In this document: positions 48,220 to 64,000 of the stretch, piece after piece | Position numbering within the stretch: the first letter of the stretch is position 1 | How the letters are laid out: each line of letters starts with the position of its first letter | From: Steroidobacter gossypii | GTDB lineage: Bacteria; Pseudomonadota; Gammaproteobacteria; Steroidobacterales; Steroidobacteraceae | Assembly (NCBI RefSeq): GCF_016801985.1 | Contig: NZ_JAEVLS010000002.1 | Span: forward strand, 868,001-932,000 | DNA: 64,000 bases | Direction of reading: 5' to 3' | Position numbers and translations under genes: made by a program | The notes under the pieces: generated by a model | Databases searched by the model: none | What the model saw: the letters and a program-made list of their open reading frames with translations, nothing else | Told to the model about the DNA's origin: nothing

Positions 48220-50154
48220 GCTGTTGGCGACCTTCCGGCGGCGCGGGCCCGGTAGGGCAAGCGGCAACAGACCCAGGACCAGCAACCACCAGTCGAAGTT
48301 GCCGCCGCCGCCGTCGCCAGTGCCGATCGGCGTGCTCGCCGGCGGCGTCTGTGGCTCTGGCGGAGTGCTGGTGACCATCGCGAAGTCGGTGTCGTCGATC
48401 GTGCCGACGTCATCGGTCACCCGCAGTCGCAAGGTGAAGCGACTGTTGCCACTGACTTGCAGGGTCGTCGACGCGGCTGTCGTGTCGACGATGGTTGGCG
48501 TGGCGCCCGTCACGTCGAGCACACTCCACTGATACGAGCTGACGGTGCGCCCCGGCGCACCGAAGCTGGTGCTGCCGCTGATATTCACGGCCACGTTCGG
48601 TTCGATGGTGGCAGTCGATTGCACGATGCCGAAAGGTTTGAGCGCAGCCTGTACGGCGGCGAAGGTGTTGAGCATGCCGGCGCCGCAAGTCAGCGTGGTA
48701 CAGATGCACTCGTAGCCCTGCACGAACGTGGTCGGCACACGGCAAATCAAAGTCGTCGCATCGCTCGAGGTGGGGAAGGGCGTGGCCGATTCTCTCAATA
48801 GTGTCGTGAACTGGGCCGGCGTCAGCGCCGGATTCACCTCGTGCATCAACGCCGCCGCGCCCGCCACCATCGGCGCGGCGAAGCTGGTGCCGAAGTTGAC
48901 CCGAGACACCGCGTCTGTATGACCGTTGCCCGCCGGATCGGGGCCACGGGTGCTGCTGTTGATCGGCACCTGGACGTGATACACACACGGCGCGTCGTTG
49001 CTGAAGGGCGGACCCTCGTTGATGCAATTGCCAGCCGGCGCGGCGATGTCCGCACCCGTGCCGAGATTGCTGTAGCCCACCTTGGTGCCTGCGTGACGGA
49101 CGCCGCTGACGCCCAGCACGCCGTTGCAGTTGGCCGGAACGCCGACGGGAATACCCTCGTTGCCGACCGAGGCGACGATCAATGTGCCGGCCGCCGTGAT
49201 TTCATCGACCGCGCTCTGATAAGCGGCGTTGCATTCCTCATTGCCGCCCAGGCTCATGTTGATGATGCTGGCGGGCGTGGGATTCAGTGGAGCGCCGTCC
49301 ACCGGCAGGCCGGCCGCCCAGCGCATCCCGTCGATGATGTCCGAATCGTCGCCGCCACATTTGCCCAACACGCGCACCGGCAGAATGCGCGCATCCCAGG
49401 CGGCGCCGGCCATGCCCGCGCCCTCGTTTGAGGCGGCGGCGATCAAGCCGGAGACTCGGGTGCCGTGCCAGGAGGAGCTCGATCGAAGCGCGCAGCCGCC
49501 GAAGACCGACGGATTCTGGGTGCGGTCGGCCTGCTCCAGCCAGTCGCCCGGATCGGTCGCGTCGCTGTCCCAGCCGTCGCTGTCGTTGGCGTTGAGCTCA
49601 TTGGAAATGAAGTCAAAACCCTCGAGCACCTTGCCCATCAGATCGGGATGGTCGGGCAGCACGCCGGTATCGAGCACGGCCACGACGGTGTCGACCTCGG
49701 GTCGGCCGGTGACGATGTCCCAGGCCTGATCGGTGCGCGTGGCGGCGACCTCGATGCTCTTGAAGTACCACTGATTGTCGAACAGCGGATCGGAGGGCAG
49801 CGCCTGGATCTGGCGTCGCTTGTCGGCGACGGCGAATTCCACGTCCGGATCGGCATTGAGCCGATCGAGCACCGCCTGCAGCTCGGCGCCGCTCATGCGG
49901 CGGTCCAGCTTGAAGACTTCGGTGGTGGGGGTACTGCGCCGTTTGTGCCGCATCGACTGGCCCGAGCGGGTCGACAGCTTGCTGGCGCGCTGAGAGGTGC
50001 TGGCCGACAGCGTCTGCTTCGCGCCGCTGCGCCACTTCACGATGATCTGGTCGGTCGCATCCTGGCCCTGCGGCCGCAGCGGACCTCGATAGTCCTGCGC
50101 CCACGCCGGCACGGCGAGCACAGCGGACAGGACGATGGCGAACAGCGATTTCAT
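48169..50154 (-). CDS. Secreted S8 family serine protease with PKD-like and C-terminal sorting segments
   Basis: This is a subtilisin-type protease. A signal peptide (residues 1-19, ending AWAQD) and a propeptide precede the catalytic domain with Asp162 (VAVLDTGVLPDHPDL), His230 (SSWHGTRVSG) and Ser424 (FGTSFAAPMVAGAA). A PKD-like beta domain follows, then a GDGGGGNF glycine stretch, a hydrophobic helix WWLLVLGLLPLALPG and PRRRK, resembling GlyGly-CTERM sorting signals. Twenty further residues after RRRK overlap the gabT 3' end. ATG at 50154 has AAGGA 8 bases upstream. The product is 661 residues. Confidence 0.92.
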   Translation of the reverse strand: MKSLFAIVLSAVLAVPAWAQDYRGPLRPQGQDATDQIIVKWRSGAKQTLSASTSQRASKLSTRSGQSMRHKRRSTPTTEVFKLDRRMSGAELQAVLDRLNADPDVEFAVADKRRQIQALPSDPLFDNQWYFKSIEVAATRTDQAWDIVTGRPEVDTVVAVLDTGVLPDHPDLMGKVLEGFDFISNELNANDSDGWDSDATDPGDWLEQADRTQNPSVFGGCALRSSSSWHGTRVSGLIAAASNEGAGMAGAAWDARILPVRVLGKCGGDDSDIIDGMRWAAGLPVDGAPLNPTPASIINMSLGGNEECNAAYQSAVDEITAAGTLIVASVGNEGIPVGVPANCNGVLGVSGVRHAGTKVGYSNLGTGADIAAPAGNCINEGPPFSNDAPCVYHVQVPINSSTRGPDPAGNGHTDAVSRVNFGTSFAAPMVAGAAALMHEVNPALTPAQFTTLLRESATPFPTSSDATTLICRVPTTFVQGYECICTTLTCGAGMLNTFAAVQAALKPFGIVQSTATIEPNVAVNISGSTSFGAPGRTVSSYQWSVLDVTGATPTIVDTTAASTTLQVSGNSRFTLRLRVTDDVGTIDDTDFAMVTSTPPEPQTPPASTPIGTGDGGGGNFDWWLLVLGLLPLALPGPRRRKVANSSTGRGHRRRRRNHFPE

Positions 50155-50513
50155 TGAGCGATTCCTTGCAAGCCCTCGACGAGTGTACGTCGCGCCTGAA
50201 CATAAGGTAAGCATGCGCTTGGTGTACGGCGGATGAATGTTTGCGACCCGCCTCGAGGCGCCTCCATCATCCACATCCAATTGGACGCGGCGTGCGAATC
50301 GACTCGAGGTCATACATTCGGTCATCCACCCATTCGCCCTCACAAACGTCCTGGATTCCGTGACGTAGCGCACGATGAACACCTTGCGAGCGCCGTTGCC
50401 GGGCCGGTAGCATCCATCGCGAATTTAACAATACTCAGCGCGAAACATTCCGGGATGGCAGGCAGTCGCAAGCAATCGCAGGGAGGAGCAAGTGCGGGCG
50501 CATTTGTTTCTGC
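50155..50513. other. Divergent spacer between the subtilase and the redox cluster
   Basis: The 359 bp hold the 5' regions of two divergent genes. I see no RNA gene, no clear FNR or CRP site and no convincing promoter. A strong GGAGGAG ribosome site lies at 50482-50488, 25 bases before the ATG of the next gene but in register with a short GTG frame at 50492. Confidence 0.6.
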
Positions 50514-50584
50514 ATGTACCAAATCGCAATCATCGGCGCCGGCCCCGCGGGCCTGAGCGCAGCCGCACGCGCCGCTGCGCGTGA
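50492..50584 (+). CDS. Possible 30-codon leader frame overlapping the flavoprotein start
   Basis: A GTG at 50492 is placed 5 bases after GGAGG(AG) and opens a 30-residue Arg-rich frame that ends at 50584, inside the flavoprotein gene in another frame. The flavoprotein ATG at 50514 has no ribosome site of its own. The frame might couple translation or be accidental; there is no homology evidence. Confidence 0.25.
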   Translation: MRAHLFLHVPNRNHRRRPRGPERSRTRRCA

Positions 50585-53045
50585 TCGACAGGCGAGGCGC
50601 AGTAGCCCCAGCTACATACTGCTCGAAGGCTTCAGCGCCCACGCCAAGACCATCCAGCGCTACCAGAAGGGCAAGCATGTGATGGCCGAGCCGGGATTCC
50701 TGGATCTGCGCAGCGATCTGGGCTTCGGCGCCGGCAGCCGCGAAAAAATTCTGTCGGCGTGGAGCGACGGTCTCAGCCAGCTCAACGTCAACATTCGATA
50801 CAACGCCGAGGTGCGCAAGATCGGCGGCGGCAAGGGCGCGTTCTCGATCCAGCTGGTCAGCGGCGAAGTCATCCAGGCCGCCTTCGTGGTGCTGGCCATC
50901 GGCCTGGAAGGCAACCCGCGCAAGCTCGGCACGCCCGGCGAGGACCTGGCGCGCGTTCAATATCAGCTGGACGATCCCAAGGAATTCAGCAACGAGACCA
51001 TCCTGGTGGTGGGCGCGGGCGACTCGGCCATCGAAAACGCGCTGGCGCTGGCCGAGCAGAACGACGTCTGGATCCTGAATCGCGGCAAGGAATTCAGCCG
51101 CGCCAAGGATGCGAATCTCAACGCAGTCGTGGCGGCCATCACCGATCCGCGCCGGCGGCTCAATTGTTACTACGAGACCAGCATCAAGAGCGTGACTCAG
51201 ACCGGCGGGGCGGTGCCGCTCACGGTGGTGATGCAGACGCCCGCGGGCGAGAAGACGGTGCAGTGTCATCGCATCATCGCGCGCCTGGGCGCGATCCCAC
51301 CGCGCAAGTTCGTGGAGTCGATCGGCATCAAGTTCCCGAACGAGCGGGCGGATGCGATCCCGGCCCTGTCGCGCCACTACGAGAGCAACGTGCCCGGCGT
51401 CTACATCATCGGCTCGCTGGCCGGCTTTCCGCTGATCAAGCAGGCGATGAACCAGGGCTACGACGTGGTCGAGTTCATCAACGGCAACGACGTGAAGCCG
51501 GCCGATCATCCATTGCTCGAATATCAGTTTTTCGGGCTGCCGTTCGAGCGCACCGTGGACGAGATCGTGGAGCGCTTCCAGACGCTGATCCCGATGTTTC
51601 GTGAGATGAATGCGCTCGCATTTCGGGAGCTGGTGATCGAGAGCGATCTGATGGTGGCGTTTCCGCCGGGCGCGGAGTTCGAGGATGCGCGCCGGCGCAT
51701 GGCGCAGCTGCAGAAGAAGCTCGCCAAGAAAGATCCGCAGCCGCGCATGACCCGCGTCATCCGCGAAGGCGAGGTAATCTATCAGCCCGGTGAGTTCGGC
51801 ACCTCCTTCTTCACCATCGTGGACGGCGAAGTGCTGCTCGAAGCCACCGGGCCACAGAAGATTCGCACGCGCCTGGGGCGCGGCGAGTTTTTCGGCGAGA
51901 TGAGTCTGCTCTCCGGCAGGCCGCGTCTGGAAAAGGCCATCGCGGGTCCCGGTTGCATCCTGGTGGAAACGCCGCGCCGGACCATGCTGAAGCTGATGAA
52001 CTCCAACGAGGAGGTTCGCAGCGGCATCGACTGGATTTTCATCGTGCGCGAGTTGCAGCGGCATTTCGCGCCGTTCGCCTCGCTGAGGGAGCTACGCAAC
52101 ATCGCGACCCGCGTGACGTTGCGAAAGCTCAAGGCGGGCGAAGTGTTGTTTGCGGAAGGCGAGACGGGCGACTCGCTCTTCGTGCTGCGCTCGGGTGCGA
52201 TCACGTTGCTACGTCGCCAGGGCGAGGCCGACCAGCTCGTCTCGCAGGTTCGCTCCGGCCAGCTGATCGGCGAGATGGCGCTGATGGGCGATCCGATCCG
52301 GCGCGAAACCGCCACCGCCAACGTGGCGGCGGAGTTGATCGAGATCAAGCGTCGCGAATTCCTCGAGCTCACACGGCGCGACGACGCACGCCTGGACCCG
52401 TTGCAGAAAGATGTGAGTCGGCGCGTGGTCGACAAGGCACGCATGCAAGTGCGGCCCGAAGCGGGCACGCTGATGAACTTCCTGATGGACGAGGGGCTGG
52501 GCGAGGCGACCAACGTCCTGGTCATCGACGAGGCGCTGTGCGTCGGTTGTGACAACTGCGAGAAGGCCTGCGCCGAAACGCATCAAGGCGTGTCGCGACT
52601 GGATCGCGAGGCCGGCGCCACCTTTGGCAACATTCACATCCCGATTTCCTGCCGGCACTGCGAGCAGCCTCATTGCATGAAGGATTGCCCGCCGAACGCG
52701 TTGCGTCGATCGGAAACTGGCGAGGTTTACATCAACGAAACCTGCATCGGCTGCGGCAATTGCGAGGCGAACTGTCCGTACGGCGTGATTCGCATGGTGT
52801 ACGACGCGCCGAAAAAGCCCGGCCTGGTGTCGTGGATGATCTTCGCCATGGGCAGTGGCCCCGGCGAGCAGCCCGACTACAAGCCCTCGGCCAAGTCCAA
52901 GGAAAAAGGCAAGAAGGCCACCAAGTGCGATGCCTGCGTCGGCATCAAGGGCGGCCCGGCGTGCGTGCGCGCCTGCCCGACCGGTGCGGCCATTCGCATC
53001 GGTCCGGAGCAGTTCGTCGACCTGGTCGAGGAGCGGAAGCGGTGA
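50514..53045 (+). CDS. FAD/NAD(P) oxidoreductase fused to two cyclic-nucleotide-binding domains and a four-cluster ferredoxin domain
   Basis: The 843-residue cytosolic protein has four parts. Residues 1-325 are a thioredoxin-reductase-like flavoprotein with GXGXXG motifs at 8-13 (IIGAGPAG) and 167-172 (VVGAGDSAIE) but no CXXC disulfide. Residues about 413-515 and 531-625 are two cNMP-binding domains (FFGEMSLLSGRPR, LIGEMALMGDPIRR). Residues 670-835 hold 16 cysteines in four sets (676/679/682/686, 713/716/721/725, 744/747/750/754, 805/808/817/821), the pattern of NrfC/DmsB-type [4Fe-4S] electron-transfer subunits. It overlaps the next gene (GTGA). It likely feeds NAD(P)H electrons to the membrane partner; the cNMP ligand is unknown. 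Confidence 0.85.
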   Translation: MYQIAIIGAGPAGLSAAARAAARDRQARRSSPSYILLEGFSAHAKTIQRYQKGKHVMAEPGFLDLRSDLGFGAGSREKILSAWSDGLSQLNVNIRYNAEVRKIGGGKGAFSIQLVSGEVIQAAFVVLAIGLEGNPRKLGTPGEDLARVQYQLDDPKEFSNETILVVGAGDSAIENALALAEQNDVWILNRGKEFSRAKDANLNAVVAAITDPRRRLNCYYETSIKSVTQTGGAVPLTVVMQTPAGEKTVQCHRIIARLGAIPPRKFVESIGIKFPNERADAIPALSRHYESNVPGVYIIGSLAGFPLIKQAMNQGYDVVEFINGNDVKPADHPLLEYQFFGLPFERTVDEIVERFQTLIPMFREMNALAFRELVIESDLMVAFPPGAEFEDARRRMAQLQKKLAKKDPQPRMTRVIREGEVIYQPGEFGTSFFTIVDGEVLLEATGPQKIRTRLGRGEFFGEMSLLSGRPRLEKAIAGPGCILVETPRRTMLKLMNSNEEVRSGIDWIFIVRELQRHFAPFASLRELRNIATRVTLRKLKAGEVLFAEGETGDSLFVLRSGAITLLRRQGEADQLVSQVRSGQLIGEMALMGDPIRRETATANVAAELIEIKRREFLELTRRDDARLDPLQKDVSRRVVDKARMQVRPEAGTLMNFLMDEGLGEATNVLVIDEALCVGCDNCEKACAETHQGVSRLDREAGATFGNIHIPISCRHCEQPHCMKDCPPNALRRSETGEVYINETCIGCGNCEANCPYGVIRMVYDAPKKPGLVSWMIFAMGSGPGEQPDYKPSAKSKEKGKKATKCDACVGIKGGPACVRACPTGAAIRIGPEQFVDLVEERKR

Positions 53046-53914
53046 TTCACCGCAATCTGCTTTCCTATCGCGGAGCCCGCTACCTGTGGTGGTCGCTGGG
53101 ACTGATCGTGGCTTCCTGCATTTTGTATGTGACGCAGGGCGACGCCCAGCCGCCCAATGGCGGCACCTGGCAAGGCTATGTGCTGGGCACGGTCGGAGCG
53201 CTGCTCATCGTGTGGCTCACGCTCCTGGGCATCCGCAAGCGCCGCTACAGCTCCACTATGGGAACGGTGCAAGGCTGGACTTCGGCGCATGTGTATCTGG
53301 GCTCGGCGCTGATCGTGGTCGCGACGCTGCATTCGGGACTGCAGATTGGCTGGAATCTGCACACGTTTGCGTATGTGCTCATGTGCGTGGTGATTCTGAG
53401 CGGCTTCTTTGGTTTGTACACCTACATGAGTTATCCGCAGCTCATCTCGAAGAATCGCGAGGGTGGAGCGCGAGCCGAGTTGTTTGCGGAGTTGTTCGAG
53501 CTGGACCGCAACGCGCGCGCCGTAGCGAGTCGCTGCGCGCCCGATGTGGCGATCGCCGTCGACAGCAGCATCGAACGCACCACGCTGGGCGGCGGGATTT
53601 ATTCGCAGTTGTTCAGTCGTGACGACTCGTACTTCGTTCGCGGCGCCGGCAAACCCGTGCGCAACACCGACCAGCAGCAAGTCATCGACTTCGTGGGCGC
53701 GCGTTTGCCGCGCGCCGCAAAGGGCGCCGAAGCCGCCAACTTGCAACAGCTCATCGTGTTGTTGTGCCGACGGCAGGCGGTGTTGCGCCGAATCCGCCGC
53801 GACATTCGTTTGTATGGTTGGCTGAAGATCTGGCTGTACTTCCATGTGCCGGTCACCATCGCGCTGCTCGTGGCGCTGGTGCTGCACATCATCGTGACGT
53901 TCTTCTACTGGTAG
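53042..53914 (+). CDS. b-type cytochrome-like integral membrane protein
   Basis: The 290-residue protein has four N-terminal hydrophobic segments (about 15-31, 45-63, 82-99, 107-129) and one C-terminal segment (about 261-289). Histidines at 83, 97, 107, 268 and 282 lie in or beside these helices and could ligate haem b. The stretch between helices 4 and 5 (about 130-255) is hydrophilic and probably folded on one face. It starts at a GTG overlapping the flavoprotein stop, so the two are probably made together. It may carry electrons from the Fe-S domain to quinol or the periplasm; no named family is certain. Confidence 0.7.
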   Translation: MIHRNLLSYRGARYLWWSLGLIVASCILYVTQGDAQPPNGGTWQGYVLGTVGALLIVWLTLLGIRKRRYSSTMGTVQGWTSAHVYLGSALIVVATLHSGLQIGWNLHTFAYVLMCVVILSGFFGLYTYMSYPQLISKNREGGARAELFAELFELDRNARAVASRCAPDVAIAVDSSIERTTLGGGIYSQLFSRDDSYFVRGAGKPVRNTDQQQVIDFVGARLPRAAKGAEAANLQQLIVLLCRRQAVLRRIRRDIRLYGWLKIWLYFHVPVTIALLVALVLHIIVTFFYW

Positions 53915-53929
53915 CGCGGGCTCAAGGAT

Positions 53930-55699
53930 ATGGACGCACTACTACGCGAGCTTCGAGAAGGTCCCGACGGGATCGCCGAATACTACGATACCGAGATCTC
54001 CAGCAAAGAGCTGACCATCGGCAGCTCCGCCGATCGCAACATCCAGCTGTTGGGCCGTGGCATCGCGGCCGAGCACGCCGTGATCCGCCAGGCCGGCGCA
54101 CAGCTCGAGCTGGAATGCCGGCGAGGCGAGTACGTGCGCCTCAACGGCAAGAAAAAAGCGACCGCGAGACTCTCCATCGGCGATGTCATCGAGCTGGCGG
54201 GGCATCGGCTGCGTATCGCGCAGCCGCCACCGGGATTCTCCGTCGCCATCGAGCTGCAGCCGAACGATCAGATCGACGCCAGCACGTTCGAAAGCGCGTT
54301 TCGCACCGACCTGTCGCAGACCTGGCTCGGCAAGCGCACTATGGCGTGGGCAGGTGTGGCCGTGGTGATGCTGTTCGGTTTGATATTGCCATTGATGGTG
54401 TACAAGGCGCATCGCGCCGACAATCCCGTGCCCTCGTGGTTTCCTGGCGATGAGTTCTGGAATTCGGGACCGCTGCATCAGGTGCATCAGCAAGCGATCG
54501 GCGACCGCTGCGAGACGTGCCACGAGAAGTTGTTCCAACGCGTGCAGGACTCGGCGTGCGAGACCTGTCATCGCACCACGCACGATCACATCATGCCGGC
54601 GCGTCTCGCGCTCACCGAGCTCGGGCCGACGCCGCGCTGTGCCACCTGTCATCGCGAACACAACGAACCGCAAACGTTCCTGGTCAACCGCAGCGACAGC
54701 AGCTGCATCGATTGCCATGGCAAGCCGCAGCACGGCTTCGGTGAGATCAAGATGGATCCGGTGAACGGGTTCGCTCTCGACCGGCATCCCGAATTCAAAG
54801 CGCATCTGCTGGCATCGGTCGCCGGACAGGCGGCGGGACGCGGCTTCAGCTACGACTGGAAGACCGTGGTCGCCGAGTTGGACAAGGCCGTGGAGCAATC
54901 CAACCTGAAGTTCTCGCATCGTCAGCATCTCGATCCGAACCGGGTGCTGCGACGTGGCGATAGCAAACCCATGAACTGCGCGGATTGTCACCGCCTCGAG
55001 CCGGATGGCGAGCACTTCGAACCGATCACTCAGGAGAAGCAGTGCGCGCAATGTCACGAGCTGACGTTCGATCCGGGCGCGCCCGATCGACAGCTGCCGC
55101 ATGGCAGGCCGCGCGAAGTGGTGCTCACGTTGCAGGACTACTTCACGCGCAAGTTTTCTGACCCGAACTTCGGTCGCGTCGCCACGCGTGAGCGTCGCCG
55201 CTTGCCAGGACAGGATCGGGAAGAGGAGACCTGCGACGGCGAGCCGTTCGACTGCGCCATGCGCAGCGCGAAGAAGGAGATCGAAAGTCAGTTCACACGG
55301 CGCGGCTGCGTCGGCTGTCACGCCGTCATCGACACCAAGGTCGCCAATGTGTTCGACCGGTTCCAGGTCGTGCCCATCCGGTTCGCGCGCGACTATTTCC
55401 CGGCCAACCGCTTCGACCATCGCAGTCATCAGATTCAGGGAAAGCTGACGGGCGACGACGCGTGCCTGTCGTGTCACGCCGCCAAAAAATCCACCGACAG
55501 CAGTGATCTGATGGTGCCCGGAATTGCGAAATGCACGGAGTGTCATGGCGACAAAGCCGCCGCCGAAAGAGTCACCGTGCAATGCGTGAGCTGCCACGAA
55601 TATCACCCGCGTCAACCCTCGCTGCTGGATGCTATCGGCACGCAGACGAGGAATCGCGAAACCGAAACCGCGCCTCGCGCCGAACTCGCTGGATTATGA
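53930..55699 (+). CDS. FHA domain - transmembrane - decaheme cytochrome c protein
   Basis: The 589-residue protein has an N-terminal FHA domain (about 27-95, LTIGSSADRNIQLLGRGI, AAEHAVIR), one transmembrane helix (about 137-158) and a periplasmic domain with ten CXXCH motifs (CETCH twice, CATCH, CIDCH, CADCH, CAQCH, CVGCH, CLSCH, CTECH, CVSCH). The FHA end should face the cytosol, where it could read phosphothreonine. The cytochrome c3-like haem part faces the periplasm. It overlaps the next gene (ATGA). A function in transferring electrons across the envelope is inferred. Confidence 0.85.
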   Translation: MDALLRELREGPDGIAEYYDTEISSKELTIGSSADRNIQLLGRGIAAEHAVIRQAGAQLELECRRGEYVRLNGKKKATARLSIGDVIELAGHRLRIAQPPPGFSVAIELQPNDQIDASTFESAFRTDLSQTWLGKRTMAWAGVAVVMLFGLILPLMVYKAHRADNPVPSWFPGDEFWNSGPLHQVHQQAIGDRCETCHEKLFQRVQDSACETCHRTTHDHIMPARLALTELGPTPRCATCHREHNEPQTFLVNRSDSSCIDCHGKPQHGFGEIKMDPVNGFALDRHPEFKAHLLASVAGQAAGRGFSYDWKTVVAELDKAVEQSNLKFSHRQHLDPNRVLRRGDSKPMNCADCHRLEPDGEHFEPITQEKQCAQCHELTFDPGAPDRQLPHGRPREVVLTLQDYFTRKFSDPNFGRVATRERRRLPGQDREEETCDGEPFDCAMRSAKKEIESQFTRRGCVGCHAVIDTKVANVFDRFQVVPIRFARDYFPANRFDHRSHQIQGKLTGDDACLSCHAAKKSTDSSDLMVPGIAKCTECHGDKAAAERVTVQCVSCHEYHPRQPSLLDAIGTQTRNRETETAPRAELAGL

Positions 55700-57762
55700 A
55701 AGACGTTTCCACCCCATCGCGTGCGAGGCGACTGTTGCTGCTGCCGTTCATGGCGGCGCTCCTGGTTGCCTGTTCCGGCGGCTCGTCAGTGACTCCAGAC
55801 ACCGGCACCGACGTGAGCAATCCGGGCTGTAACGGCAGCTGTTTGAACACGGGCTTCAATCTCACCGTCGCCGACGTGCAACAAGTGATCGCGCAGGGCG
55901 TGGCTGAAGCGCAGGCCCGCGGCGTGAACGCAACGATCGCGGTCGTGGATCGCGTCGGCAATGTGCTCGCCGTGTATCGCATGGGTGACGCGTCGACACG
56001 CTCGGTGACGGTCACGACGTCACCCGCGGGTGACGCGCCGATTTCGGGTGGGCTGGAAGGAATTCGCCTGCCGACGCAGGCGTTGCAGCTGTTCATCGAT
56101 CATGCCGCCGCCATCGCCAAGGCAGTGACGGGCGCGTATCTGTCTTCGGAAGGCAACGCCTTCTCGACGCGTGTCGCCAGCCAGATCGTACAGGAGAACT
56201 TCAACCCGGGTGAACAGCTGCAGCCGGCCGGCCCGCTGTTCGGAGTGCAGTTCAGCTCGCTCGCGTGCTCGGATCTGGTCCGTCAGTTCAACGGCACCGC
56301 CCCGAGCATCGGGCCACAACGCACACCGCTGGGATTGTCAGCCGATCCGGGCGGCTTCCCACTGTACAAGGGTGGCACCGTCGTCGGTGGCGTGGGTGTG
56401 TTGGCCGATGGTTTCTACACCATCGACAAGAGCATTCTCGACCGCGACGTAGATATCGATGAGGCGATCGCGCTTGCCGCGACATTCGGGTTCAGCGCGC
56501 CGGTCGATCGACGCGCCGACCGCATCACGGTCGATGGCAAAATCTTGCGCTTCACCGACGTGGAGTTCGCGGAGCTGAGCACGAACCCGCAGCTGGCGCC
56601 GGGTTTCGCATCGCTCGCGCCGACGGTGGGACAGGTGATCCCGGTGTTGGGTTACACCGACGGTGTGATTCGCGACGGCACCGTGTTCGGTCAGCCGGGC
56701 TCCGGCATTCGACCCGATGCGGATCAGAATTTCCCAGGACGCGATGCTTTCGTGCTGGTCGATGAGACCAATACGTTGCGTTTTCCGCCGCGCACCGGCA
56801 CTGACGCCGCTGTGGTCGGTGGGGCAGTGCTTTCCGAGAGCGAAGTTCGCACGTTGTTACAATCAGCACTCGATGTAGCAAATCGCGCGCGTGCGCAGAT
56901 CCGCCGTCCGACAGGTTCGCAGGCTCGTGTCACGATCTCGGTGGTCGACACTCAAGGTGCGATTCTCGGCATCGCACGCACGCGCGATGCGCCACTGTTC
57001 GGCACGGATGTTTCTTTGCAGAAGGCGCGAACGGCAGCGTTCATGTCCTCGAACACAGCTGCGGCGTTCGTCGCCACGCTGCCCGATGCGAAATATCTTG
57101 CCACGACCGACGCCGGCGCCAGCGTGGTCCGCGCCATTCCATTGAATAGCTACGTCGCTCAGTTCCAGGCGTTCATGAACAATCCGAATGCCCTGGCGGA
57201 CGGATCGATCGCGTACACCGATCGCGCGTTCGGCAATCTGGCGCGGCCGTTCTTTCCGGACGGCATCAACTATGAAAACCAGGGGCCGCTGAGCAAGCCC
57301 AGGGGCGAGTGGAGTCCGTTCTCCACCGGCATGCAGCTGGATCTGTCGATCAACGCGATCCTGCAACACGTATTGTTCGTCTCCGGCTTGCCGGTGCCCG
57401 ACGTGGCGCCCGGCTGCGCCGGCGTGCAACTGGCCAACGATCTGAGCAGCGTCGGACAGACCATCGCCGGAGTGCGACTGGGCAACGGCTTGCAGATCTT
57501 CCCGGGCAGCGTGCCGATTTATCGTGGCAATACGTTGATCGGTGGCATCGGCGTGTCGGGCGATGGTGTCGATCAGGACGACATGATCGCGTTCCTGGGC
57601 TTGCAGAATGCCGGTCAGGCGCTCAATGGCGCGATCAACAATGCGCCCCCCGAGATGCGCGCCGACACGCTGACGCCGATGGGTGTGCGTCTTCGCTACG
57701 TGCAGTGTCCGCAAGCGCCGTTCATCGACGTCACGGACGACAACGTGTGTGGAGGGATGTGA
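55696..57762 (+). CDS. Lipoprotein with two GlcG/HbpS-type domains
   Basis: The 688-residue protein starts at ATG 55696, overlapping the preceding stop. A lipoprotein signal ends in LLVAC. Two copies of a GlcG/HbpS-like fold are recognisable, one after LTVADVQQVIAQGVAEAQAR (with IAVVDRVGNVLAVYRMGD) and one after LSESEVRTLLQSALDVANRA (with ISVVDTQGAILGIART). Members of this family bind haem or small ligands; here a haem-handling or sensing role beside multiheme cytochromes is plausible. Exact function is unknown. Confidence 0.78.
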   Translation: MKDVSTPSRARRLLLLPFMAALLVACSGGSSVTPDTGTDVSNPGCNGSCLNTGFNLTVADVQQVIAQGVAEAQARGVNATIAVVDRVGNVLAVYRMGDASTRSVTVTTSPAGDAPISGGLEGIRLPTQALQLFIDHAAAIAKAVTGAYLSSEGNAFSTRVASQIVQENFNPGEQLQPAGPLFGVQFSSLACSDLVRQFNGTAPSIGPQRTPLGLSADPGGFPLYKGGTVVGGVGVLADGFYTIDKSILDRDVDIDEAIALAATFGFSAPVDRRADRITVDGKILRFTDVEFAELSTNPQLAPGFASLAPTVGQVIPVLGYTDGVIRDGTVFGQPGSGIRPDADQNFPGRDAFVLVDETNTLRFPPRTGTDAAVVGGAVLSESEVRTLLQSALDVANRARAQIRRPTGSQARVTISVVDTQGAILGIARTRDAPLFGTDVSLQKARTAAFMSSNTAAAFVATLPDAKYLATTDAGASVVRAIPLNSYVAQFQAFMNNPNALADGSIAYTDRAFGNLARPFFPDGINYENQGPLSKPRGEWSPFSTGMQLDLSINAILQHVLFVSGLPVPDVAPGCAGVQLANDLSSVGQTIAGVRLGNGLQIFPGSVPIYRGNTLIGGIGVSGDGVDQDDMIAFLGLQNAGQALNGAINNAPPEMRADTLTPMGVRLRYVQCPQAPFIDVTDDNVCGGM

Positions 57763-57763
57763 C

Positions 57764-59731
57764 GTGAGGAAAAGACGTCGACCACTAACGACCTCGTTGC
57801 TGACCCTCAGCACTTTCGTTGTCACTGCCACTGCGTGGTCGACGACGGCGAGTGCGCAGGAAGTTTGCTATCAGGACGACGTCGGGCGCATCGTGAAGCG
57901 CCGTCGTCCCGGTTACACGGAAGTGCCTTGTCCGCAGGAGGGCGCCGCGCCTCAAGCGCCGATCCCAAGTGAAGGCGTGCCGCCGCCGGAGACACAGCAG
58001 GTCGTGCCCGTGCCCACGCCGCAGCGAGTCGTGCCGTTGCCGCCGCGTGAAGCGCAACCCGACGTGCCAGCTTCCGTTGAAGACACCGGCCGCGCGCCTC
58101 GTCGGCGAACGATCGAGCGTGCGCCGCCAGCATCCATTTCGCCAATCCCGCGTCCCGGGCTTGCTGATTTCGTGGACTCGGTGCCCATGCCCGATCGCTG
58201 GCGCATCGTCGACACGCTGGGTTACAAGGAACGTTGGTGGGATCCATACAACCGCAACGTGCTGAAAGCGGACAAGCCGGTGGTCGGCGAGGATTGGTTC
58301 TTCAATCTCGGCCTGATCTCCGACACCGTGTACGAGCTGCGCGAAGTGCCGACACCCGTGGGCGCGATCTCCACCGATCAGCCGGGCGGCATCGACGTGT
58401 TCGGCAGCTTCGATCAATGGTCGATGTCCCAGAACGTCAGCGCCGAGCTGGTCTATTACAAGGGCAACACGGTCTTCAAGCCACCTGACTGGGAATTCCG
58501 TGTCACGCCGGTGTTTTCGTACAACTACACCGAGCTGGAAGAAGTGCAGGGCGTGAATGCCGATGCCCGACGCGGCCTGGACCGTGACGACACCTTCGTC
58601 GGCTTGCAGGCGGCGTTCGTGGATCGCCACATTCGCAATGTTTCGGACAACTACGATTTCGACAGTTTCCGGATCGGCATCCAGCCGTTCTCGTCGGACT
58701 TCCGTGGCTTCTTGTTCCAGGACAATCAGCTTGGCGCGCGCCTGTTCGGCACGCGCGACAACAACAAGTGGCAGTACAACATCGCGTACTTCCGTCGCCT
58801 GGAAAAGGACACCAACAGCGGCTTGAACGACGTGGGTGAGACGCCGCGTGAGGATGACGTGTTCGTGGTGAACCTGTATCGGCAGGATTTCCCGGTGCTG
58901 GGCTTCACCTCGCAAGCCACGGTGCTCCACAACCGCAATCGCGACGACGAGATTTTCTACAACGCCAACGGTTTCATCGAGCGGCCGTCGTCGCTCGGGC
59001 TGGAGAACCTGCGCGAGTACGATGTGACCTATGTCGGTTATAACGGCGACGGTCACTTCGGCCGGCTCAATCTGACGACTTCGGTGTATTACGCGTTCGG
59101 CGACGAAACGCCGAGCGTGTTCGTCAACCAGGAGGTGGATATCAGCGCCGTGTTCGCGGCCGCTGAGTTGTCGGTGGATTTCGATTGGATCCGTCCACGC
59201 CTGTCGCTGCTCTATGGCAGCGGCGACGACAATCCGTTCGACGACGAGGCCAATGGCTTCGACGCGGTGTTCGAGAATCCACAGTTCGCCGGCGCGGACA
59301 CCAGCTACTTCATTCGCCAGGCCGTGCCTTTGATCGGCGGCGGCCGGGTGGCGCTGGCGACTCGTAACGGCGTGTTGAACAACTTGCGCTCGTCGAAGGA
59401 GCAGGGGCAGTCGAACTTCACCAATCCCGGCGTGCTGCTGGCGGGACTGGGCGTCGACATGGACCTGATGCCGACCCTGCGCGTCTCGCTCAATGCCAAC
59501 TCGCTGTACTTCGACGATACGGCGGTGCTCGAGGTGGCGCGCAATCAGGGGCCCATCGACAAGCACATCGGCTACGACGTGTCGGCTTCATTGATCTATC
59601 GCCCGCTGATGTCGCAGAACATCGTGGTGCGGGCGTCGTACGCGACCCTGATTGCCGGGGATGGCTTCGATGCGCTGTTCCCGGACGAGGATCCGGGCTA
59701 CTTCCTGCTCAACGCCATTTTCGCCTACTGA
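57764..59731 (+). CDS. Predicted outer-membrane beta-barrel protein of the redox cluster
   Basis: The GTG at 57764 follows GGAGGG by 7 bases and gives 655 residues. A signal peptide (ending TTASAQEV) is followed by a short Cys-containing segment (CYQDDVGRIVKRRRPGYTEV), a Pro-rich linker to about residue 125, and alternating amphipathic strands to the end. The last residues are LLNAIFAY, an aromatic C-terminus expected of Bam-assembled barrels. Placed between multiheme cytochrome genes, it may be the porin of a porin-cytochrome conduit. It does not obviously match MtrB. Confidence 0.72.
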   Translation: MRKRRRPLTTSLLTLSTFVVTATAWSTTASAQEVCYQDDVGRIVKRRRPGYTEVPCPQEGAAPQAPIPSEGVPPPETQQVVPVPTPQRVVPLPPREAQPDVPASVEDTGRAPRRRTIERAPPASISPIPRPGLADFVDSVPMPDRWRIVDTLGYKERWWDPYNRNVLKADKPVVGEDWFFNLGLISDTVYELREVPTPVGAISTDQPGGIDVFGSFDQWSMSQNVSAELVYYKGNTVFKPPDWEFRVTPVFSYNYTELEEVQGVNADARRGLDRDDTFVGLQAAFVDRHIRNVSDNYDFDSFRIGIQPFSSDFRGFLFQDNQLGARLFGTRDNNKWQYNIAYFRRLEKDTNSGLNDVGETPREDDVFVVNLYRQDFPVLGFTSQATVLHNRNRDDEIFYNANGFIERPSSLGLENLREYDVTYVGYNGDGHFGRLNLTTSVYYAFGDETPSVFVNQEVDISAVFAAAELSVDFDWIRPRLSLLYGSGDDNPFDDEANGFDAVFENPQFAGADTSYFIRQAVPLIGGGRVALATRNGVLNNLRSSKEQGQSNFTNPGVLLAGLGVDMDLMPTLRVSLNANSLYFDDTAVLEVARNQGPIDKHIGYDVSASLIYRPLMSQNIVVRASYATLIAGDGFDALFPDEDPGYFLLNAIFAY

Positions 59732-59743
59732 GCTTGCGACCCG

Positions 59744-62700
59744 ATGATGCGAAAGATGCCAACAGGGAAACTCGGTCACATCGCCCGCACGGCGGGGCAG
59801 GCGCTGCTCGTGCTGTGCGCGTTCAGCGGCGTGGCCTCCGCCGGTTTGTTCGGCAGCGACGAGCCGAAATACGTGACGGCGCCGCCGGCGCCGAAAAGCC
59901 AGACCGACGACATGGTGCGAGCCAAGACCGAAGGCTGCCAGACCTGTCACACACAAACTGATTCCAACACCATGCACTTGAACCCGGCGGTGAAGCTGGG
60001 TTGCACCGACTGTCACGGCGGCGATGCGAGCGTGCGCCTGGCGCCTGGCGTCACGCGTGGGACCGACGCTTATATGAAGCAGCAAGAGCTCGCTCACGTG
60101 CTGCCGCGGTTCCCCAAGGAATGGAACTATCCGTCCAGCGCCAATCCCGAGCGCAGCTACACGTTGCTCAACCGGGAAAGCCCCGAATTCATTCGCTTCA
60201 TCAATCCCTCCGACTACCGCATCGTGCGCGAGTCGTGCGGCGCCTGTCACATGGAGATCATCGAAGCGACCTCGCGCAGCATGCATACCACGGGCGCGAT
60301 GCTGTGGGGTGGCGCGGCATATAACAACGGCATCCTGGATTTCAAACAGTACATCCTCGGCGAATCGTACGATCGCGACGGCAAAGGCGTGCTGCTCAAA
60401 GGGCCCAAAATCCCCGATCACCTGATCGATCAGGCCGCCATCGCTGGCATCCTGCCGCAGCTGTATCCGCTGCCGTCGTGGGAGACGATCTATCCCGGCG
60501 ACATCTTCCGCGTGTTCGAACGCGGCGGACGAAACATCGGCAACTTGTTTGCAGAGACGGGCCTGCCGAATGCGCTCGGCCAGCTGCAACGTATCGAGGA
60601 GCCGGGGCGGCCGGATTTCCGTCAGTCGAATCGTGGACCGGGCACCGGCGCTCGCATCGCCGTGCCGGTCATCAACATCACCAAGACGCGCTTGAACGAC
60701 CCGCTGCCGTGGTTCATCGGCACCAACGATCAGCCCGGCGACTATCGCCATTCGGGCTGCGCGTCGTGTCACGTGGTGTATGCGAACGATCGCGACAAGC
60801 GTCACTCGAGCATTTACGCCAAGTTCGGCCATGAAGGCCTGACGCGCACCGTCGATCCCACCATCAGCAAAACCGAGCCGGGGCACCCGTTGACTCACAC
60901 GCTGACGCGCTCCGTGCCGAGCAGCCAGTGCATGGTCTGCCACATGCACCAGCCGAACATGTTCATGAACAGCTTCCTCGGCTACACCATGTGGGACTAT
61001 GAGTCCGACGCGCCGTTCATGTGGCCCGAGAAGCAGCAGTACCCGGACAGCGAAACGATTCGCAAGGTGCTGGATCGCAATCCGGAGGGCGCGGCCACGC
61101 GCGGCAAATGGGCGGATGTGGAGTTCCTGAAGCAGGTGTCCGAGTTGAATCCGCAGCTCAAGGATACGCAGTTCGCGGACTATCACGGTCACGGCTGGAA
61201 CTTCCGTGCGGTGTTCAAGCGCGATCGTAAGGGCAATCTGCTCGACGCCAACAATCGCATCGTGAGCGATGACGATCCGCAGAAGTTCAAGAAGGCGGTG
61301 CACATGTCGTCCATCCACGTGGATGTCGGCATGCAGTGCGTAGACTGCCACTTCGCGCAAGATAATCACGGCAATGGCTACATCTACGGTGAAGTCGCCG
61401 CTGCGGTGGAGATCGACTGTAAGGACTGCCACGGCACCGCGTTGCAACTGCCGAATCTCTACACGTCGGGCCCGGCCGCATTGGGCGGCGGCGTCGACAT
61501 GACCACGCTGCGTACGCCGGACGGTCGGCGTCGCTTCGAATGGGTGGGCGATACGTTGTATCAGCGCTCGATGATGGAGCCCGGTGTCGAGTGGCGCATG
61601 AGCCTGGTCAAGCGCACCGTCGATCCGAAAAGCGCCGAGTACAACCCGAAGGCGGCGCGCGCCAAGCTGATGAGCAAGAACACCACGACGCAGGTCTGGG
61701 GCAAGGGTGTGGGAGCCAACGAGCTCGCCCACGCCGACGAGAACGTCGAGTGTTACATGTGCCATACCTCGTGGACCACGAGCTGCGGCGGCTGTCACTT
61801 GCCGATCGAGGCGAACGCCAAGACCACGCGCAATCACTACGAGGGCGGCGAAACCCGCAACTTCGCCACCTACAATCCGCAGGTGGCGCGCGATGAGATG
61901 TTCCTGCTGGGCCGTCGCGAGCCGGCCGCTGGCGGCAAGATCGCTCCCGTGCGATCGAGCTCGGCGCTGGTGCTGTCGTCGACCAATGCCAACCGCGAAA
62001 AGATCTATATCCAGCAGCCGCCCATCGCGGCGAGCGGCTACAGCTCACAGGCGTTCAATCCTCACTATCCGCACACCGAGCGCAAGACCGAGACCAAGAC
62101 CTGCAGCGACTGTCACTTGTCGAAGGAAAACGACAACAACGCCATCATGGCGCAGTTGCTGGCGCAGGGAACCAACTTCATCAACTTCGTCGGCTACAAC
62201 GCATACGTCGGCGGCGCCGGTCAGATCAGCGCCGTAACTGTGACCGAGTGGGATGAGCCGCAGGCCGTCATCGGCAGCTATCTGCACCGATACGCCTATC
62301 CCGACTGGTTCAACAAGCACAACGACAAAGGCCGCGAGCTGCAGAATGGTTACAGCCACAACGCAGGTGAGGTGCGCTGTCTGCAACTGCGCGGCGAGTA
62401 TCTGTATGTGGCCGAAGGCCGCGGTGGCCTGCAGGTGTACGACGTTGCGAGCCAGGGCAACAAGGGCGTGTCGCAACGCCTGATCACGGCGCCCTTCAGT
62501 CCGCTGGGTCACGATACCCAGGTCAATACCAAAGATGCGACCTGCGTGGCGCTGCCGACCAACCAGCCGATTCATCCGCCGCGGAATCAGGGCGAGAAGA
62601 TGCGCGTGGCGAATATGGAGCAGCCATTTCATCCGCTCTACAACTACGCGTATGTCACCGACTCGAAGGAAGGATTGATCCTGGTCGACGTCAACACCAT

Positions 62701-63517
62701 GGCCGACGGCGAGCCGCGCAATAACTTCCTCAAGCGTGCGGTGACGTGGAATCCGGGCGGCGTACTCAATGGCGCGCGGCACATTACGGTCGGCGGCTAC
62801 TATCTGTACATCACCACCGACAAGGGGCTGGCGATCGTCAGTGTCGATGATCCGCTGAAGCCGATGATGGTTGCGGAAGTGCCGCTCCAGAACGCGCACT
62901 CGTCGGCGTTGCAGTTCCGCTATCTGTTCGTGACCGATGCGGAAGGCCTGAAGACCATCGACGTGACCGACCCCAGAGCGCCGCGACTGGTGCCGAACAA
63001 CACCATCCGCATGAAGAACGCGCAGCGTGTGTTCGTGGCGCGAACCTACGCGTACGTGGCGGCGGGCAGCGATGGCGTCGTGATCGTGGACGTCGAACGT
63101 CCGGAGCGAATGTTCGAATATCAGCGCTTCAGCGCGGGCGGCAAGATCACCGATGCACGCGACGTGATCGTCGCGACCACCAACGCTTCTCTGTTCATGT
63201 ATGTCGCCGATGGCGAGAACGGACTGAAGGTCGTGCAGCTCACCTCGCCGGCTTCGCAGCCCAAGTTCTACGGCTTCAGTCCCGAGCCCAAGCCGGAGCT
63301 GATCGCGATGTATGAAACGAGCAAGCCCGCGCTGAGCCTGTCCAAGGGGCTGGAGCGCGACCGCGGCGTCGACGAGACGGGCGGGCAGATCGCGGTGTTC
63401 GGCCGGCGCGGCTCGCGTCCGTTGAGTCTCGAAGAGATGCGCAAGCTGTTCCTGAACGACAATGGGCAGCCCTGGTACGTCAGCGATCAGGTGGAACAGC
63501 AGATGTCTCGGCAGTAA
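59744..63517 (+). CDS. Decaheme cytochrome c fused to an LVIVD-type beta-propeller
   Basis: The 1257-residue secreted protein has a signal peptide ending GVASAG, then ten CXXCH motifs (CQTCH, CTDCH, CGACH, CASCH, CMVCH, CVDCH, CKDCH, CYMCH, CGGCH, CSDCH) spread over residues about 65-790. From about residue 875 a propeller of LVIVD-like repeats follows (YLYVAEGRGGLQVYDVAS, YAYVTDSKEGLILVDVN, YLYITTDKGLAIVSVDDP, YLFVTDAEGLKTIDVTDP, YAYVAAGSDGVVIVDVER). Such propellers bind surfaces or partners. ATG at 59744 or 59747 are both possible. A role at the cell surface is inferred. Confidence 0.85.
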   Translation: MMRKMPTGKLGHIARTAGQALLVLCAFSGVASAGLFGSDEPKYVTAPPAPKSQTDDMVRAKTEGCQTCHTQTDSNTMHLNPAVKLGCTDCHGGDASVRLAPGVTRGTDAYMKQQELAHVLPRFPKEWNYPSSANPERSYTLLNRESPEFIRFINPSDYRIVRESCGACHMEIIEATSRSMHTTGAMLWGGAAYNNGILDFKQYILGESYDRDGKGVLLKGPKIPDHLIDQAAIAGILPQLYPLPSWETIYPGDIFRVFERGGRNIGNLFAETGLPNALGQLQRIEEPGRPDFRQSNRGPGTGARIAVPVINITKTRLNDPLPWFIGTNDQPGDYRHSGCASCHVVYANDRDKRHSSIYAKFGHEGLTRTVDPTISKTEPGHPLTHTLTRSVPSSQCMVCHMHQPNMFMNSFLGYTMWDYESDAPFMWPEKQQYPDSETIRKVLDRNPEGAATRGKWADVEFLKQVSELNPQLKDTQFADYHGHGWNFRAVFKRDRKGNLLDANNRIVSDDDPQKFKKAVHMSSIHVDVGMQCVDCHFAQDNHGNGYIYGEVAAAVEIDCKDCHGTALQLPNLYTSGPAALGGGVDMTTLRTPDGRRRFEWVGDTLYQRSMMEPGVEWRMSLVKRTVDPKSAEYNPKAARAKLMSKNTTTQVWGKGVGANELAHADENVECYMCHTSWTTSCGGCHLPIEANAKTTRNHYEGGETRNFATYNPQVARDEMFLLGRREPAAGGKIAPVRSSSALVLSSTNANREKIYIQQPPIAASGYSSQAFNPHYPHTERKTETKTCSDCHLSKENDNNAIMAQLLAQGTNFINFVGYNAYVGGAGQISAVTVTEWDEPQAVIGSYLHRYAYPDWFNKHNDKGRELQNGYSHNAGEVRCLQLRGEYLYVAEGRGGLQVYDVASQGNKGVSQRLITAPFSPLGHDTQVNTKDATCVALPTNQPIHPPRNQGEKMRVANMEQPFHPLYNYAYVTDSKEGLILVDVNTMADGEPRNNFLKRAVTWNPGGVLNGARHITVGGYYLYITTDKGLAIVSVDDPLKPMMVAEVPLQNAHSSALQFRYLFVTDAEGLKTIDVTDPRAPRLVPNNTIRMKNAQRVFVARTYAYVAAGSDGVVIVDVERPERMFEYQRFSAGGKITDARDVIVATTNASLFMYVADGENGLKVVQLTSPASQPKFYGFSPEPKPELIAMYETSKPALSLSKGLERDRGVDETGGQIAVFGRRGSRPLSLEEMRKLFLNDNGQPWYVSDQVEQQMSRQ
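63325..63351. repeat. Possible dispersed repeat embedded in the decaheme gene
   Basis: The bases around CTGAGCCTGTCCAAGGGG encode SLSKG near the decaheme C-terminus. This resembles the CTGAGCCTGTCGAAGGG element dispersed in many proteobacterial genomes. Only this copy is seen here, so the call is tentative. Confidence 0.4.
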
Positions 63518-63535
63518 CGGGTCTCGGAGAACTCT

Positions 63536-64000
63536 ATGGGACGGAGGCGAGGCGCCTTCTCGAAAACAAGAGCGCTGTGGCTGATGGTGGCCTTGGGAGC
63601 GAGCGTACCGGCGCTCGCGCTCGAGCCGGGTATTGCCGATTACAAACACATGGGAGTGGCGAGCTGCGCCACCAGCGTCTGCCACGGCAAGCTTGCTCCG
63701 CAGTCAGATAAAGACGTGGCGTTGAACGAGTATCGGATCTGGCAGCAGGAAGACCGGCACGCGCAGGCCTATCGCACTCTCGAACTGCCGGAGTCCAGGC
63801 GCATTGCCGCCAATCTGGGCTTGCCGAATGCGACGGCGGCGAAGATCTGCCTGGATTGCCATGCGGACAATGTGCCCTCGGACAAGCGCGGCCCGAAGTT
63901 TCAGATCAGCGACGGCGTGGGCTGCGAGGCCTGCCATGGCGGCTCGGAAAAATGGCTGGAGAGTCACGCAGCGGAGAACGCGACCCACAAAGACAACCTG
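63536..64000 (+). CDS. Multiheme cytochrome c (c554-like), truncated by the window edge
   Basis: The ATG at 63536 has GGAGA upstream; 155 codons are present and the frame runs off the window. A signal peptide (ALWLMVALGASVPALALEPG) is followed by a CX4CH haem motif (CATSVCH) and two CXXCH motifs (CLDCH, CEACH). This pattern resembles cytochrome c554 family proteins, which is an homology-based impression. It continues the same operon 18 bp after the decaheme gene. Confidence 0.78.
   Translation, partial: MGRRRGAFSKTRALWLMVALGASVPALALEPGIADYKHMGVASCATSVCHGKLAPQSDKDVALNEYRIWQQEDRHAQAYRTLELPESRRIAANLGLPNATAAKICLDCHADNVPSDKRGPKFQISDGVGCEACHGGSEKWLESHAAENATHKDNL

Follow-up and report, generated by a model that had tools for sequence, protein, structure and literature searches.

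A conserved seven-gene redox cluster of Steroidobacter gossypii as a candidate trans-envelope electron conduit under cyclic-nucleotide control

The stretch of the Steroidobacter gossypii genome (7.1 Mb) analyzed here, a window of 64,000 nucleotides at positions 868001-932000 of its contig, carries seven intact, co-directional reading frames, g1 to g7, on the plus strand from position 50514 to beyond position 64000. They encode a flavoprotein with iron-sulfur (Fe-S) clusters, a histidine-bearing membrane protein, multihaem cytochromes, a lipoprotein and a barrel-like protein. We conclude that the seven genes are a real, widespread and dedicated system, uncharacterized as far as searched, and that a conduit function is likely. 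In the reading we prefer, to which we give about an even chance, the cluster is an NADPH-fed, cyclic-nucleotide-controlled trans-envelope electron conduit, apparently independent of quinones. A preliminary description drawn from the DNA letters had proposed a tightly spaced gene cluster, and all frames were indeed found in place, with spacing from 4-nt overlaps to an 18-bp gap.

The genes belong together well beyond this genome. In a class sample of 274 genomes, g3 (E ≤ 1e-60) was found in 14, g2 (E ≤ 1e-80) in 15, g6 (E < 1e-100) in 12 and g5 (E ≤ 1e-6) in 12, and these were nearly the same genomes; weaker matches to g3 (four, at E about 1e-4 to 1e-3), g2 (21 genomes) and g6 (49 genomes) were set aside. 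Eleven genomes are shared between the g3 and g6 lists (Fisher p about 3e-16), so that the expectation of the preliminary description that the genes would recur together was borne out. The barrel-like gene g5 tracks g6, and at E ≤ 1e-6 no g5 was found away from the gene set in this sample. The mismatches comprise G229 (88% complete, g3 not found), G214 (contig ends inside g5), G028 and G091. The last, at 100% completeness, carries g7-g1-g2-g3 but gave no match to g6 or g5. Beyond the class sample, g3 was detected in five of 60 genomes of the window's own family at E ≤ 1e-30 (seven at 1e-3), in 15 of 398 genomes of a phylum sample (E ≤ 1e-10), where the set recurs in other classes, and, at E ≤ 1e-10, in 32 of the 99 genomes sampled from family f204. 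Among 32 g3-positive genomes whose neighborhoods were studied, 25 also have g6. Pairwise distances of g1 to g7 correlate at 0.87-0.95, which is partly expected from common descent, and the cofactor residues are invariant from the window's own class to other classes. Such co-conservation is hard to reconcile with chance.

A tree of g1 points to probable movement of the cluster between families: the g1 of the window and those of its genus group with one genome from each of two other families (supports 100/100 and 100/99) and not with four further members of their own family. Plasmids also carry it: twelve plasmid records contain a g3 relative, all from Sphingobium, and on pMSHV of S. herbicidovorans the block g1-g2-g3-phosphoesterase lies beside g6-g5-g4-g7, with a g1 that nests among f204 genomes. 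Closer to home, four related loci occur in named Steroidobacter and Peristeroidobacter genomes, with g1 to g7 about 80 to 94% identical; three keep the order g1 to g7 followed by a PP2C phosphatase gene, and the fourth is a short contig ending inside g5. The clusters of G005 and G205 each span two contigs that appear to abut. In G155 (L036, L173), a second, diverged g7-g1-g2-g3 set adjoins the main cluster.

Pfam and NCBIfam models place in g1, in this order, an FAD/NAD(P) oxidoreductase domain, two cNMP_binding domains (PF00027, 117.9 bits over two stretches) and an Fe-S domain with 16 cysteines. All 16 cysteines and the FAD/NAD(P) glycines are invariant in 59 of 59 aligned rows (rows covering 75% of the profile, as for g3 and g6 below). 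The phosphate-binding Glu and Arg of the first cyclic-nucleotide-binding domain are likewise kept in 59/59 rows, those of the second in 58/59 and 56/59, respectively. Residues 1-340 of the window's g1 lack any CxxC, so the protein does not have the redox-active CxxC of thioredoxin-reductase type flavoproteins. An Arg after the second Rossmann strand, by rule a mark of NADPH preference, is present in 58/59 rows, and this residue together with a linked NADP-specific glutamate dehydrogenase (GDH) suggests that NADPH rather than NADH is the donor. In its Fe-S domain or NAD(P) flavoprotein domain g1 resembles AegA-type or YpdA-type proteins, but it scores far below their cut-offs (64 versus 1003 bits and 103 versus 340 bits, respectively) and has tandem cNMP domains.

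For g2 the coverage filter left 14 rows, and the residue counts were therefore redone with 64 loci, which represent 62 distinct genes including the window's own, since in two pairs both entries are one gene. His 83, 97, 107, 268 and 282 are invariant in all 64. The pairs 83/97 and 268/282 are each 14 residues apart, and the NADPH oxidase pattern for two stacked b haems is a pair of helices that each bear two His 13-14 residues apart. We therefore regard g2 as a probable di-haem b membrane protein, with four hydrophobic segments and with its His pairs placed in helices on hydrophobicity only. Pfam returned for g2 the b561 model alone, at 25.1 bits (cut-off 30.1), and no match to the ferric-reductase domain. 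NADPH oxidases and ferric reductases share with the cluster NADPH and FAD on the cytosolic side as well as the two helices with His pairs about 14 residues apart; they differ in that almost every locus here encodes the donor as its own protein, which also has Fe-S and two cNMP domains, and in that a decahaem cytochrome probably accepts the electrons. Loci L100 and L101, both from one family, have g1 and g2 as a single open reading frame of about 1120 amino acids, and neither genome has a g6 match. No g2 relatives were found in viral contigs, and the only anti-phage model matches were to the PP2C phosphatase and to the cNMP portion of g1.

The operon encodes 25 c-type haem motifs: ten CXXCH in g3, ten in g6, and four CXXCH plus one CX4CH in g7. 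The Cys, Cys and His of all ten sites are kept in 63/63 rows of g3, one site being CX4CH in L100 and L101, and in 41/41 rows of g6; the four CXXCH of g7 are kept in 20/20 rows, and the additional CX4CH is present in the window's copy. Sequence searches of the PDB with g2, g3, g5 and g6 gave no usable match, the one for g3 being chain SAKe6EEref at E 0.05. In g3, an N-terminal forkhead-associated (FHA) domain (23.1, cut-off 20.7) and one transmembrane segment (residues 139-157) precede the decahaem part. The phosphothreonine site of FHA domains consists of Arg, Ser and Asn. Across the 63 rows of g3 the Arg is present in 54, Ser in three or Thr in five, and Asn in 31, with all three together in four; in the window's copy Ser and Ala stand where Arg and Ser are expected. 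With Ser or Thr kept in only 8/63 rows and the full site in four, the domain may serve for docking rather than for reading phosphothreonine, and we rejected it as good evidence of phospho-control. It resembles the second FHA domain of g9, the last gene of the operon (36%). At L095:8558-10993 and L096:5888-8326, proteins of about 811 amino acids contain 11 and 12 CXXCH, respectively, and resemble g6 in part; the sequence retrieved around them holds no cluster gene, and similar partial g6-like matches were seen in other genomes too.

The list of parts in the preliminary description held for the domains of g1 to g4, g6 and g7. In g4, a PF03928 match over three stretches (E 2e-24) and a lipobox, LVAC, identify an HbpS/GlcG-like lipoprotein. 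The beta-barrel assigned to g5 could not be confirmed: 11 members had no Pfam match at E ≤ 1, the best porin model reached 18 bits against a cut-off of 250, and the AlphaFold model, built on a shallow alignment, had a pLDDT of 26.5 and was not used. A rough alternating residue pattern is present, and we retain g5 as a putative outer-membrane barrel. The idea of a common barrel with other partners, suggested by the WDPYNQN-KGD stretch of g5, was discarded when the matches among the 274 genomes (E ≤ 1e-6) fell in set-carrying genomes. At L041:16381-18009, in a genome lacking matches to both g5 and g6, a different 542-amino-acid protein that reads like an outer-membrane protein adjoins two g7-like cytochromes and is possibly an alternative pore.

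We asked which genes lie near the cluster more often than random placement predicts, using a distance of 20 kb, cluster limits set by hand and 20000 simulations. A CHASE2 gene was this close in 14 of the 28 genomes having one (expected 1.3), a phosphodiesterase-like gene in 8 of 20 (expected 0.4) and an NADP-glutamate dehydrogenase gene in 11 of 19 (18 over cut-off; expected 0.5), each count above all 20000 simulations; the related genomes in these counts are not independent, and the links span 11, 2 and 7 families, respectively. The label CHASE2AC in our neighbor listings is a BLAST label that was checked in Pfam for nine proteins, and all nine have a class III cyclase domain over cut-off. 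In a hold-out set of 26 further f204 genomes with g3, the phosphodiesterase-like gene stood beside g3 in 24 of 26 loci. Of the 14 loci in which g6 was visible, 13 were extended (L150 stopped at the end of its contig), and 10 of these 13 clusters had a CHASE2-cyclase match no farther than 18 kb from g7. The word 'regulated' in the preliminary description is thus upheld by the conserved cyclic-nucleotide sites and the linked cyclase and phosphodiesterase-like genes, with the FHA domain of g3 as weaker evidence. Cyclic-nucleotide control is the best-supported regulatory idea, and FHA control the weaker case.

In the proposed mechanism, electrons would pass from NADPH to the FAD and then the four [4Fe-4S] clusters of g1, from there to the two stacked b haems of g2 in the inner membrane, and on to the ten c haems of membrane-anchored g3, which would hand them to g7 and g6. 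The pore formed by g5 would then let them reach an acceptor located at the outer membrane or beyond it, and the g4 lipoprotein would be a haem- or ligand-binding part. The two cyclic-nucleotide domains, lying between the flavin and Fe-S domains of the g1 chain, may gate transfer, while the linked phosphodiesterases and CHASE2 cyclases would set the cyclic-nucleotide signal. The operon of the window's own clade also includes the PP2C phosphatase and an FHA protein, and GDH, beside or inside some clusters, would tie the conduit to the NADPH/glutamate pool. Conserved residues back each predicted cofactor; the transfer steps, their outward direction, the gating and the location of g4 to g7 are what we infer. 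We prefer outward flow because NADPH is a low-potential donor and the membrane potential should favor electrons that leave.

The strongest competitor, which we consider rather unlikely, is a compound-specific reductase, in which g6 and g7 would be multihaem enzymes whose substrate may be a nitrogen compound, with the ammonium produced going to the linked NADP-GDH, and g5 would admit the substrate. The cytochromes lend it some credit, as g7 is c554-like (PDB match to cytochrome c554, E 0.004) and g6 has weak NCBIfam matches to NrfH, HmcA and ExtM. So does the GDH linkage, which in some genomes takes the form of operon-like runs: cyclase-GDH-g1-g2 on one strand (L124), GDH-g1 twice in one genome (L127, L128), GDH before g7 in L120 and GDH between g7 and g4 in L099 (5834-7366). 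However, the nine proteins of the window's own operon contain no CXXCK motif, many clusters have no GDH, and 25 c-type haem motifs, together with a barrel-like gene of its own, would be a costly outfit for a soluble substrate.

A conduit that runs inward, with Fe(II), minerals or reduced organics feeding NADP+ reduction and GDH using the NADPH for ammonium assimilation, is distinctly less probable. NADP-GDH is usually biosynthetic, as this scheme would have it, but NADP+ reduction from such donors would be uphill and against the membrane potential unless coupled, and no coupling element was seen. Also in its favor, a forkhead-associated protein with 10 CXXCH, putatively homologous to g3, occupies one row of Table 1 in PMC10734462, where it is tabulated in 27 of 87 Gallionellaceae iron-oxidizer genomes; this row, the sole mention of 'forkhead' in the main text of that paper, is the only earlier sighting we found. 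Least probable is a redox sensor or signaling complex with small net flux, in which electrons would serve to sense redox conditions outside the cell, as input to signaling through cyclase, FHA and kinase/phosphatase proteins: it would account for the signal domains on g1 and g3, for the linked cyclase, phosphodiesterase-like, serine/threonine protein kinase (STPK), PP2C and FHA genes and for the fact that HbpS-like proteins include redox sensors, but two decahaem proteins and four Fe-S clusters fit flux better, and the FHA domain of g3 mostly lacks the phosphothreonine Ser.

Several observations weigh against an NADPH-fed, cyclic-nucleotide-controlled conduit. The barrel assignment of g5 is putative. 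Core-only forms exist, with seven of the 32 g3-positive genomes having no g6 match (in three of them, G214, G473 and G332, the contig ends right after the genes seen). A scan of the window for CRP-like sites gave 17 matches where 19.5 were expected, with none just before g1. The phosphodiesterase-like gene matches best the SpdA model, a 2',3'-cyclic-nucleotide enzyme, and its SpdA and CpdA (cAMP-phosphodiesterase) scores are both below cut-off; its link to the cluster is seen in two families only. In S. gossypii itself the CHASE2 and phosphodiesterase-like matches sit on other contigs. GDH was absent at E ≤ 1e-100 from 13 of 32 genomes, and the window's own genome has its copy on another contig. 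In the hold-out extension GDH lay near only 3 of 13 clusters, and we therefore regard the GDH link as real but far from general.

On paper the cluster is porin-cytochrome-like, and by the tests applied it appears to be a member of none of the Mtr/Pio, PCC3, Uet or ExtM systems, which agrees with the preliminary description as to Mtr and Pio and extends it to the others. Mtr, Mto and Pio consist of an inner-membrane feed, a periplasmic multihaem protein, an outer-membrane protein and an exported decahaem protein, a layout that the cluster shares as far as genes alone tell. Their electrons come from CymA-type quinol oxidation, whereas the cluster has an NAD(P)H-type flavoprotein and, in g2, a probable di-haem b protein instead. 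The g5 members did not match the MtrB/PioB barrel model (which we take to be PF11854), nor any other in the Pfam search above. For the DmsE/MtrA-type decahaem family (TIGR03508, cut-off 192.2) g3 and g7 reached 25.5 and 20.9 bits; g6 reached 16.5 bits for the MtrC/MtrF domain (cut-off 30), and its six NCBIfam matches include no OmcA/MtrC family. As portrayed in PMC10734462, PCC3 of iron or cathode oxidizers combines a porin with a periplasmic cytochrome of 21-27 haems, whereas the Uet cluster comprises a protein with 11 haems, subunits with four and three haems, a PPIase and NHL units. Measured against that portrayal, the cluster is alike in having a porin-like part and several multihaem cytochromes, but it carries 10 + 10 + 5 haem motifs with no protein in the 21-27 range, has an HbpS lipoprotein, an LVIVD propeller and a flavo-Fe-S protein, and shows none of the Uet undecahaem, tetrahaem, trihaem, PPIase and NHL units among its nine genes. 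To the Geobacter ExtM equivalog (NF040943) g6 scored 66 bits against a cut-off of 800. A further likeness is to GarA/OdhI-PknG, which controls glutamate metabolism in actinobacteria: in G205 a double-FHA gene, PP2C, STPK and GDH all lie near the cluster, and g9 matches OdhI at 72 bits (cut-off 200), but the FHA proteins here are membrane-anchored and stand beside a proposed multihaem electron conduit. No description of the gene set was found in the literature searched by full text; PMC12016527, in its accessible part, is not about this cluster.

The S. gossypii operon extends past the window to nine genes, listed in the table.

Table. Genes of the S. gossypii operon (window coordinates unless a locus is given)
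Gene	Position	Strand	Product or features	Basis or remark
g1	50514..53045	+	Flavoprotein with two cNMP_binding domains and 16-Cys Fe-S domain	Pfam/NCBIfam
g2	53042..53914	+	His-bearing membrane protein, probable di-haem b	GTG start
g3	53930..55699	+	FHA domain, one transmembrane segment, decahaem cytochrome	
g4	55696..57762	+	HbpS/GlcG-like lipoprotein	PF03928, lipobox
g5	57764..59731	+	Putative outer-membrane barrel	GTG start; no Pfam family
g6	59744..63517	+	Exported decahaem cytochrome with LVIVD propeller	
g7	63536..64000 (5' part)	+	c554-like cytochrome, 435 amino acids in the genome	Gene cut by window end
PP2C gene	L004:2856-3686, just past window	Co-directional	PP2C phosphatase with C-terminal transmembrane segment	12 bp after g7
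g9	L004:3676-4671	Co-directional	Double-FHA protein with C-terminal transmembrane segment	Overlaps PP2C gene

The two signaling genes at its end mark one clade: PP2C follows g7 in the window's genus, G009 and G205, and the double-FHA gene comes next in the window's own genome, G009 and G205. STPK genes lie beside the clusters of G174 and G205, with a further PP2C gene in G174. A subtilisin-like protease whose hydrophobic C-terminal tail is rich in Gly is encoded divergently from g1 on the minus strand of the window (48169-50382), and its gene is upstream in three named relatives too. A promoter scan found no promoter. G205 also encodes, at L032:6799-9888 in the interval from an STPK gene to g1, a protein that has a caspase domain and Sel1 repeats. 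FecR-like and TPR-barrel-like genes (labeled by eye) form with a CHASE2 cyclase a block adjoining the cluster in four loci (L033, L039, L040 and L088). A TPR protein, labeled CcmI in our neighbor listings although that identity is putative, is encoded near g1 in 25 of 26 hold-out loci, often divergently (for example L106:14774-15715); it has a weak NrfG match below cut-off and may serve cytochrome maturation.

Trans-envelope conduits are known mainly from metal-respiring or iron-oxidizing bacteria and are quinone-fed; what would be new here is an NAD(P)H-type flavoprotein with cyclic-nucleotide sites in the electron path. As a tentative and bolder proposal, we suggest that the cluster could be a cAMP-gated electron valve, in which nucleotide binding in g1 opens an NADPH-oxidase-like, quinone-independent wire from cytosol to surface in soil bacteria, with GDH as NADPH partner in some lineages and the serine-less FHA domain of g3 as a docking site. 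We know of no second-messenger-gated trans-envelope electron conduit, and the valve, if real, would be the first. Family f204, within which the Sphingobium relative falls and of whose genomes 32/99 carry the set, is studied for pollutant breakdown. If our reading is true, soil bacteria would possess a switchable outlet for reducing power, and second-messenger control of transmembrane electron flow would become testable.

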